Below are positions 45,833 through 46,848 of a stretch of 64,000 bases of DNA, piece by piece. The notes below the pieces were generated by a model, which was not told the DNA's origin, ran no database searches, and saw nothing but the letters and a program-made list of their open reading frames with translations. Source of the stretch: Christiangramia echinicola DSM 19838 (GTDB taxonomy: Bacteria; Bacteroidota; Bacteroidia; Flavobacteriales; Flavobacteriaceae); NCBI RefSeq assembly GCF_000423065.1, contig NZ_AUHG01000012.1:124001-188000 (forward strand). Direction: 5' to 3'. The translations under genes and the position numbers were made by a program. The first letter of the stretch is position 1. Each line of letters starts with the position of its first letter.

Positions 45833-45953
45833 AAACTATAATGTTTAAGAACTAAATTACATTAATGCTCTACCCACACAAAAAGATTAACAATACTTTG
45901 AACTTGAAAACCTCCCCTAGTCTAAGTTTCTGAAAATCTTTCTAATAGCTGAA

Positions 45954-45984
45954 TTGTTAAAATATTGTTAATTCGGTACCTTTT
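45954..45984 (+). promoter_or_regulatory. possible Bacteroidota-type promoter of the small-peptide array
   Basis: TTG at 45954-45956 and TACCTTTT at 45977-45984 resemble the Bacteroidota -33 TTG / -7 TAnnTTTG signals, with 20 bp between. It would give a leader of about 65 nt before the first peptide ORF. The -7 box is imperfect, so this is tentative. Confidence 0.3.
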
Positions 45985-46056
45985 ATTACATAGTACTGTA
46001 ACGGTTTATTTTTATAGTCGTCTATTAAATAGAAACAATCATCAAAAACATCAATT

Positions 46057-46158
46057 ATGACAACTTCAGTAAGCAACACCAAAAACAGAAAATCATTCAT
46101 GAACACAGAAGCAAATGCTGGTTCAATGAGTATTACTAGCAGAAGAAGATTCGCTTAA
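46057..46158 (+). CDS. small-peptide array, ORF 1 (33 aa)
   Basis: A 33-codon ORF, start context ATCAATT-ATG. It begins MTTSVSNTKNRKSF and ends with the block MNTEANAGSMSITSRRRFA. The peptide is Ser/Thr/Asn-rich and basic at the C-terminus (RRR), with no signal peptide or membrane span. Against ORF 2 it has three synonymous differences within the conserved block (AAT/AAC, ATT/ATC, AGC/AGT) and two amino-acid changes near the N-terminus, which argues that the protein, not only the DNA, is kept. Function unknown. Confidence 0.6.
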   Translation: MTTSVSNTKNRKSFMNTEANAGSMSITSRRRFA

Positions 46159-46197
46159 TCAATTATCATCATTCATCAATCATCAGAAACATCAATT

Positions 46198-46299
46198 ATG
46201 ACAACTTTAGTAAGCAACACCAAAAGCAGAAAATCATTCATGAACACAGAAGCAAACGCTGGTTCAATGAGTATCACTAGTAGAAGAAGATTCGCTTAA
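46198..46299 (+). CDS. small-peptide array, ORF 2 (33 aa)
   Basis: Second copy, beginning MTTLVSNTKSRKSF and ending in the same 19-residue block as ORFs 1 and 3. The substitutions relative to ORF 1 are Ser-to-Leu at residue 4 and Asn-to-Ser at residue 10. The ATG is preceded by the same CATCAATT context as in copies 1 and 3. It would be in the same transcript as the others. Function unknown. Confidence 0.6.
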   Translation: MTTLVSNTKSRKSFMNTEANAGSMSITSRRRFA

Positions 46300-46338
46300 T
46301 CAATTATCATCATTCATCAATCATTAGAATCATCAATT

Positions 46339-46437
46339 ATGACAACTTCAGGAAACACTAAAAACAGAAAATCTTTCATGAACACAGAAGCAAACGCTGG
46401 TTCAATGAGTATCACTAGCAGAAGAAGATTCGCTTAA
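46339..46437 (+). CDS. small-peptide array, ORF 3 (32 aa)
   Basis: Third copy, beginning MTTSGNTKNRKSF; the N-terminal part is one residue shorter, and the C-terminal block is unchanged. It carries further synonymous codon differences against ORF 1 (ACC/ACT, TCA/TCT). Function unknown. Confidence 0.6.
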   Translation: MTTSGNTKNRKSFMNTEANAGSMSITSRRRFA

Positions 46438-46470
46438 TCCTATTATCATCAATCATTAAAATCATCAATC

Positions 46471-46605
46471 ATGAAAACTTTAGATAGCGTTATCCAGGAT
46501 CTTGGAAAGAATAAAGAAGGAGGTGTAAATCATCGCAGACCTTTTCTAAATCTTAAGAATTCTACAGGATATTTTAAATGGCACGAAAATAAATGCCGTG
46601 CCTAG
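46471..46605 (+). CDS. small-peptide array, unrelated ORF 4 (44 aa)
   Basis: A 44-codon ORF with the same upstream context (ATCATCAATC-ATG) but a different sequence: it begins MKTLDSVIQDLGKNKEGG, then NHRRPFLNLKN, and ends WHENKCRA. It has one Cys (42) and a Trp at 37. It closely follows ORF 3 and probably shares its transcript. It could be a partner peptide of the repeated ones. No known family comes to mind. Confidence 0.5.
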   Translation: MKTLDSVIQDLGKNKEGGVNHRRPFLNLKNSTGYFKWHENKCRA

Positions 46606-46760
46606 GTCGTCATCAATCAGGAATGCATTGGGAAATCAATCAAATATTTAGTTTAAGAATTAGCCAATTTCATCACTAAATTAAAGAATACCGTTTAGTC
46701 CCTATCAGCATCTGAACAGTTTAAAGACCTTATTTTTCTATCGTAGGAACGATTCCAATC

Positions 46761-46788
46761 TAGCCGGTAAATTCACGTTTACCGGCTA
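46761..46788 (+). terminator. terminator after the peptide array
   Basis: TAGCCGGTAAA (46761-46771) and TTTACCGGCTA (46778-46788) form an 11-bp stem with a 6-nt loop, then ATAATTTTT. It separates the array from the penicillin-binding protein gene that follows. Confidence 0.8.
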
Positions 46789-46848
46789 TAATTTTTGGTT
46801 AAAAAAGCATTAAAATAAGCTTAAAATTAGCCTGCAGGAGCAAACATT

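Follow-up and report, generated by a model that had tools for sequence, protein, structure and literature searches.

Four small open reading frames (ORFs) lying in tandem in the window, by which we mean the whole 64,000-nucleotide stretch of Christiangramia echinicola DNA that was analysed, appear to be real genes and look translated. Our analysis indicates that they probably encode translated, ECF-controlled intracellular microproteins of a dosage type. We propose that this set represents, in Christiangramia, a microprotein operon that occurs across the Flavobacteriaceae. In these loci a highly conserved promoter-like region precedes between one and four short ORFs that resemble each other, frequently with a longer and more divergent ORF behind them, and most of the ORFs have an A-rich initiation region of their own.

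The ORF list contains all four of the frames that the initial annotation had described, three short ORFs of 33, 33 and 32 residues and one of 44 residues, on the forward strand. They are ORF1 (MTTSVSNTKNRKSFMNTEANAGSMSITSRRRFA, positions 46057 to 46158), ORF2 (46198 to 46299), ORF3 (46339 to 46437) and the long terminal form, ORF4 (MKTLDSVIQDLGKNKEGGVNHRRPFLNLKNSTGYFKWHENKCRA, 46471 to 46605). At the protein level, identity to copy 1 is 94% for copy 2 and 97% for copy 3. ORFs 1-3 do share the C-terminal block for which they were first noticed, but the N-terminus, which was described as differing, is largely conserved too, since 29 of the 33 alignment columns are invariant. The corresponding DNA repeats take in the spacers between the ORFs, are spaced 141 and 138 nt apart, and have 96% and 72% ungapped identity to the first copy. 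When the organism's own genome was searched with a profile at E values up to 10, ORFs 1-3 were the only short copies found. An intrinsic terminator-like hairpin of 12 pairs with a T-rich tail (46761 to 46788, forward strand) starts 156 nt beyond ORF4; it was found in a hairpin scan and again in the fold of the array region, and the whole 64-kb window contains 2 terminator-like sites versus a mean of 0.5 in shuffled sequences. Together with the promoter-like region upstream, this hairpin is in line with the earlier suggestion that the array is its own transcription unit. The span first reported (46057 to 46605) encloses the ORFs but leaves the putative promoter, at about 45956-46027, outside. 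By Pfam, the flanking genes in the window encode an SdiA-regulated/phytase-like protein, an M19 dipeptidase and a class A penicillin-binding protein (PBP).

ORF4 had been regarded as an unrelated partner of ORFs 1-3, a view that both profile searching and profile-profile comparison contradict. On the organism's own genome, a profile of the long forms placed ORF4 at the top (E 6e-24), followed by ORFs 3, 1 and 2 (E 0.025, 0.099 and 0.14), with the best place other than ORFs 1-4 at E 0.54. Comparison of the profiles of 14 short and 13 long forms gave a probability of 84% (E 7.6e-6) and aligned residues 8-33 of ORF1 with residues 19-44 of ORF4. Some loci of the genus contain an extra 44-aa form, such as MTAFSNIIQDFATGREGNLTHRKSFLNFKSTAGRTCWYSRRRYA, that joins the N-terminus of ORF4 to the RRRYA end of ORFs 1-3. 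One genome also has a lone second relative of 45 aa, MTIFSNISKHFGSSNDGDLTHHKPFLNQRTSNGRSCWYNRRKFGV, which lies on a contig other than that of the array and has no AGTACTGTAAC block (L050, G003:C86).

Within Christiangramia, the profile of ORFs 1-3 detected arrays in 21 of 24 genomes at E values up to 1, mostly as several matches in one place, and had no match at this threshold in G002, G005 or G019, the last of which is 73% complete. We read one locus from each positive genome, and these 21 loci contained one to four short forms together with, in nearly all cases, a long ORF4-like form; the version of it at L017 is a diverged ORF of 30 aa. The weakest match in the genus (G015, E 0.27) was retained because its locus is arranged like the others and contains the AGTACTGTAAC block. 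Among named genomes, a scan found 12 loci, all from Christiangramia or Gramella, and in 12 of 12 the short forms are followed by the long form. A second genus, g112, also has relatives of the long form, in 14 of 16 genomes, and a third, g32, has them in two (G054 and G280). One genome (G427) has five short copies, MKTSANNRRTFWNQEKETGQSKWNSKRRYSF and close variants of it, and after them one long form, the whole set lying between SdiA-regulated-like and PBP genes. At two loci of G054 (L047 and L051), contigs end at or near pieces of an array, as expected if the repeats break the assembly.

Synonymous differences between the copies (AAT/AAC, ATT/ATC and AGC/AGT) are present in the conserved block, as the initial annotation had pointed out when it argued for translation and purifying selection. 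Such changes within the window are weak evidence on their own, as copies 1 and 2 differ over the whole ORF by 3 synonymous and 2 nonsynonymous changes, and it is through the orthologues that the argument holds. With the counts restricted to forms whose length is exactly 33 or 44 aa, we found that the short forms of loci L004 and L006 differ at 9.0 of 20.8 synonymous versus 1.0 of 78.2 nonsynonymous sites, and the long forms at 10.5 of 25.3 versus 3.5 of 106.7. Between the window and L004 the corresponding values were 10.7 of 20.5 versus 7.3 of 78.5 for the short form and 16.5 of 26.3 versus 11.5 of 105.7 for the long form. Across 105 genome pairs per form, pS was 0.62-0.76, which is near saturation, and pN was 0.26-0.31. 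In the first short copy, third codon positions vary most (1534, versus 912 and 1021 for the other two positions). Purifying selection acts on the proteins of these arrays in Christiangramia.

The translation initiation regions point in the same direction. In Flavobacterium johnsoniae, the part of the published account available to us reports that adenines at -3, -6, -12 and -13 favour translation (PMC6847099). We observed an adenine at three or more of positions -3, -11, -12 and -13 in 165 of 174 signature ORFs, compared with 138 of 718 other sense ATGs and 116 of 1338 antisense ATGs. ORFs 1-4 of the window score 4, 3, 3 and 4 out of 4, respectively, and a score of three is reached by 29 of 39 longer terminal ORFs that lack the motif described below. 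Adenine at -6 is less marked (49%). The signature ORFs thus carry the adenines, at -3 and from -11 to -14, that mark strongly translated flavobacterial genes.

Upstream of the array, we identified a conserved region whose elements occur in a fixed order in the upstream alignment: GTTAA repeats, GTAC, a T-rich stretch, ACAT, AGTACTGTAAC, 16 nt and CGTCTATTA. The most distal element, GTTAAAATATTGTTAA (45956 to 45971, forward strand, as are those that follow), contains two GTTAA repeats 11 nt apart and resembles an upstream activator element; GTTAA repeats are present in the consensus of 21 Christiangramia loci and in that of 22 peptide-found loci. Directly upstream of the putative -35 lies a second conserved block, GTACCTTTTATTACAT (45976 to 45991), whose GTAC repeats the AGTAC of the block that follows. 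This core block, AGTACTGTAAC (45992 to 46002), ends in TGTAAC (45997-46002), which we take as an ECF-type -35, and exactly 16 nt past TGTAAC is CGTCTATTA (46019 to 46027), a putative ECF-type -10 containing CGTC. AGTACTGTAAC occurs once per locus in 75 of the 95 loci compared, many of which overlap, including all array loci of the genus (L001-L043). The longer string TACATAGTACTGTAAC, at 45987-46002, is the sole match in the window at up to two mismatches and has one exact match in the genome, plus two more with 2 mismatches. ECF sigma factors recognise promoters with a -35 of the GTAAC or GAAC kind and a -10 with CGTC, at a spacing near 16. The window has this arrangement, TGTAAC-N16-CGTC, within AGTACTGTAAC-N16-CGTCTATTA (45992-46027), and from this shape we infer that the array would be transcribed by an ECF sigma factor, with a regulator possibly binding at the conserved GTTAA repeats.

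Used alone as a query (AGTACTGTAAC-N17-GTCTATTA, at most 1 mismatch), the promoter pattern picked out 79 of 397 Flavobacteriaceae genomes, from 59 of 237 genera, and the same pattern read backwards picked out 1 genome. Small basic ORFs follow it in 81 of 88 places, two or more of them in 67, and most have W-x3-R-x-[YF] at the C-terminus. When a motif ORF was defined as one of 24-52 aa with W-x3-[RK]-x-[YFH] near its C-terminus in the next 760 nt, 79 of the 88 places had at least one, 65 had at least two and 14 a single one only. The corresponding controls gave 0 (antisense), 1 (upstream sense), 0 (upstream antisense) and at most 1 in 20 rounds of shuffling. Two Christiangramia loci (L114 and L115, the latter being the window) have short forms without Trp, and so without the motif, and are counted among the 81. 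Two other places (L144 and L160) have the pattern with nothing array-like behind it. The pattern also precedes some larger, exported-looking proteins, of 188 aa at L111 (where they are in tandem) and L179, of 187 aa at L147 and of 134 aa at L182, and a site with one mismatch stands before an exported-looking protein of 231 aa at L119.

As the motif had been defined on loci found through the promoter, we also made the reverse test, from peptide to promoter. A profile of the 28-aa class-1 peptides (16 sequences, E up to 0.01) had matches in 140 of 397 genomes and 95 of 237 genera of the family; profile A5 was built partly from genomes on which it was run. From near the top of this list of matches we chose 24 loci by hand, all in genomes that lacked a promoter match, passing over some eligible genomes such as G388 and G192. 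In 23 of these peptide-found loci the promoter is present, with 2-4 of its 23 positions mismatched and the spacer always 16 nt long, compared with 8-10 mismatches in the reversed sequence; the exception (L216) has 8. In a draw of 395 genomes across the order, the pattern was found in 8, all among the 76 that we counted by hand as Flavobacteriaceae, and in 0 of 319 genomes of other families, among which more diverged promoters would escape this query. We considered a phage origin and rejected it: in viral contigs the class-1 profile gave 6 pattern matches, of which 0 were confirmed, the promoter pattern gave 1 match (L241), which has no array-type ORFs in its vicinity, and PHROGs matches reached E 0.023 at best. 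A PBP gene of the kind seen in the window follows the array in 13 of 15 g112 loci and is not visible in the stretches read at L090 and L091. Outside Christiangramia the neighbours, judged by eye, vary by genus and include small heat-shock-like, helicase-like, ExbD-like and other ORFs. Because array neighbours differ in this way between genera, no fixed partner gene is seen.

The peptides found outside Christiangramia fall into two main classes, of 28 aa (MRTLDSNQLTAKMKTSKAYSWNSKRRFH) and 37 aa (MKASITKTATESKTGQYFSSFRNSKRAQWAQYRNYNR). In most genera they carry a C-terminal [ST]-K-x3-W-x3-R-x-[YF] patch, the Trp of which is absent from the short forms of the window. When 164 distinct peptides were aligned on this Trp, the residue at -5 was S or T in 91%, that at -4 was K in 74%, that at +4 was R in 94% and that at +6 was Y or F in 99%; positions +4 and +6 were part of the selection criterion, and -5 and -4 were independent of it. 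The net charge is at least +3 in 163 of the 164. Profile comparison did not link the classes of different genera by sequence (probabilities of 1-9%), so the case for their common descent rests on promoter, layout and motif; the promoter pattern caught 37-aa arrays too diverged from the window peptides for sequence linkage. Arrays of the 37-aa class often hold a further, different ORF, which is about 39 aa long and includes a segment resembling GFGWNTDRLY (L112, L165, L176, L177, L187 and L189); this is perhaps another conserved microprotein.

Copies resemble each other more within arrays than between them. For Christiangramia, where the comparison covered the 33-aa forms of the window and of 8 of the 12 named loci and so excluded the window's third copy, the identity was 0.83 within versus 0.67 between arrays, and 0.75 versus 0.47 over the last 13 residues, with the best match inside the same array for only 16 of 23 copies. 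The corresponding values were 0.77 versus 0.56 for the 28-aa class and 0.78 versus 0.57 for the 37-aa class. Such likeness is more in keeping with selection for dose, accompanied by homogenisation or recent duplication, than with selection for diversity.

To look for the sigma factor in the same genome, we listed the Sigma70_r4_2 matches over the cut-off, which number 14 and include at least one response regulator by sequence (L254). Among these sigma-type genes, one ECF sigma gene (L247) alone is preceded by a TGTAAC/CGTC-like site; this is TGTAAC-N17-CGTC, with a 17-nt spacer, and ends 10 nt before the start codon; by a rough estimate, about one such match would be expected by chance in the scan. 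A relaxed promoter search of the genome gave 10 sites versus 13 in the control, and thus no excess. Four of the sites found in this genome (L130-L133) are TGTAAC-N16-CGTCT-like, with their first base 34-65 nt before a start codon, and precede genes for, respectively, an exported-looking protein of 74 aa, a protein of 319 aa, a membrane protein of 112 aa and one of at least 492 aa. These genes are possible members of the regulon, a suggestion to be read against a site count that is not above that of the control.

The peptides and profiles that we tested have no convincing relative in Pfam, NCBIfam, PHROGs, PDB or Rfam, which bears out the earlier remark that no known family fits. The Pfam family DUF1127 was not matched by ORF1, ORF4 or one C-type ORF at E up to 10, by 16 class-1 peptides at E up to 1, or by four other array peptides at E up to 0.1. 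One of the 16 class-1 peptides matched MobC at E 0.11, which is chance level, and profiles A4 and A5 matched no PDB chain. Among the matches listed from open-licence full-text literature, none concerned these arrays. As there is no fixed partner gene and no database relative, and the DUF1127 profile test failed, we chose the reading of an intracellular, dose-type microprotein. According to this reading, an ECF sigma factor would transcribe the operon with the help of a regulator at the upstream repeats, the copies would serve dose and not diversity, and the products would be cytoplasmic peptides of small size and strongly basic character. They might act by binding an anionic or regulatory partner inside the cell during envelope or nutrient stress. 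Our leading guess for this partner, a tentative one, is RNA or the ribosome, followed by a regulatory protein such as a sensor kinase, a sigma factor or an anti-sigma factor, which is possible but doubtful.

We weighed this proposal against several other explanations. The peptides could instead be exported or modified, as signals, antimicrobials or RiPP precursors kept in multiple copies for yield, as might be imagined for short, cationic, tandemly encoded products with strong-looking initiation regions. We consider this unlikely, as inspection by eye revealed neither a signal peptide, a long hydrophobic stretch nor a double-glycine leader in the array peptides, the copies are alike within arrays rather than diversified, and Cys is present in 9 of the 164 peptides. 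In addition, neither an exporter nor a modifying enzyme is found among the three flanking genes of the window (Pfam) or recurs among the neighbouring ORFs of other genera (judged by eye), and nothing found in the analysis favoured a secreted, modified or antimicrobial role. Tandem toxic peptides active on membranes, for which the type I toxins Ldr and Ibs are the model, would share the small size and the repeated copies, but such toxins are hydrophobic, and the GRAVY values of the 164 peptides (median -1.31, maximum -0.39) make this account hard to credit.

It is also conceivable that the array acts as regulatory RNA, with the ORFs incidental or secondary. In Rhodobacter, the CcsR array consists of tandem homologous sRNA units that are transcribed from stress promoters together with the gene of a small basic protein, and the window likewise has tandem units under a stress-type promoter, with repeats that include the spacers. 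Against this, synonymous substitutions have accumulated freely whereas the amino acids are conserved, as are the initiation adenines. The fold of the region gave a z-score of -1.0, with 2 of 20 shuffles folding equally well, no Rfam match in the window reached the gathering score, and an E-value search of 45833-46848 returned only two ceN30 matches, on the other strand and far below that score. The RNA alternative raised in the initial annotation is therefore very improbable. A last possibility is that the ORFs are leader peptides that regulate the PBP gene, which begins about 240 nt downstream on the same strand and stands behind the array in most g112 loci as well. As a terminator-like hairpin separates the two in the window and quite different ORFs lie behind the arrays of other genera, we give this explanation almost no credence.

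Judged by class-1 peptides alone, the operon occurs in 140 of the 397 genomes sampled from this large family, and for its tested peptides and profiles there is no Pfam or NCBIfam model or PDB chain. Its near-invariant promoter is a handle that should reveal the ECF sigma factor and its regulon, and the promoter pattern is a search key for arrays that are too diverged at the peptide level. The peptides themselves are of a size that permits their synthesis and their use as bait. We would go further only with reserve, at somewhat below an even chance, in suggesting that these peptides may constitute a new family-wide class of cationic microproteins, made at high dose from a dedicated ECF-type promoter as part of a core stress response of the Flavobacteriaceae and acting through a novel mechanism in which the Trp-Arg-Tyr patch would bind RNA, the ribosome or a regulator.

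Several known systems resemble parts of this arrangement. The tandem homologous layout is common to CcsR and the arrays, but the units of CcsR are sRNAs, whereas here each unit is a conserved ORF. In the portion of the account of F. psychrophilum that we consulted, Guerin and colleagues describe a motif, SM6, whose -10 region contains a CGT box, ascribe it to an ECF sigma factor and report its induction at low nutrients; the arrays share the CGT box, but that portion gives no -35 sequence for SM6 and mentions no such arrays (PMC9723704). The PorXY-SigP regulon of Porphyromonas, as far as the part consulted describes it, is a case in Bacteroidota of an ECF sigma factor tied to a response regulator, but its proposed SigP motif, C(T)AAA(G/C/T)A(T)A(C)T(A/G)A, differs from the array promoter (PMC4800418). 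The DUF1127 proteins (CcaF1, YjiS and the Agrobacterium SDPs) are, like the array products, short, arginine-rich and present in up to several copies per genome. In the sections available to us, CcaF1 is called RNA-binding (PMC10253847) and other small DUF1127 proteins are described as binding the kinase PhoR (PMC12501420). The arrays differ from DUF1127 in having no match to its profile, in their W-x3-R-x-[YF] motif, in their tandem similar copies and in a promoter pattern that we found in one family of one order only. The array peptides are small and basic, as are those of DUF1127, and the shape of their promoter suggests that they may be induced by stress. In behaviour, by analogy, DUF1127 appears to be the nearest known thing to them.
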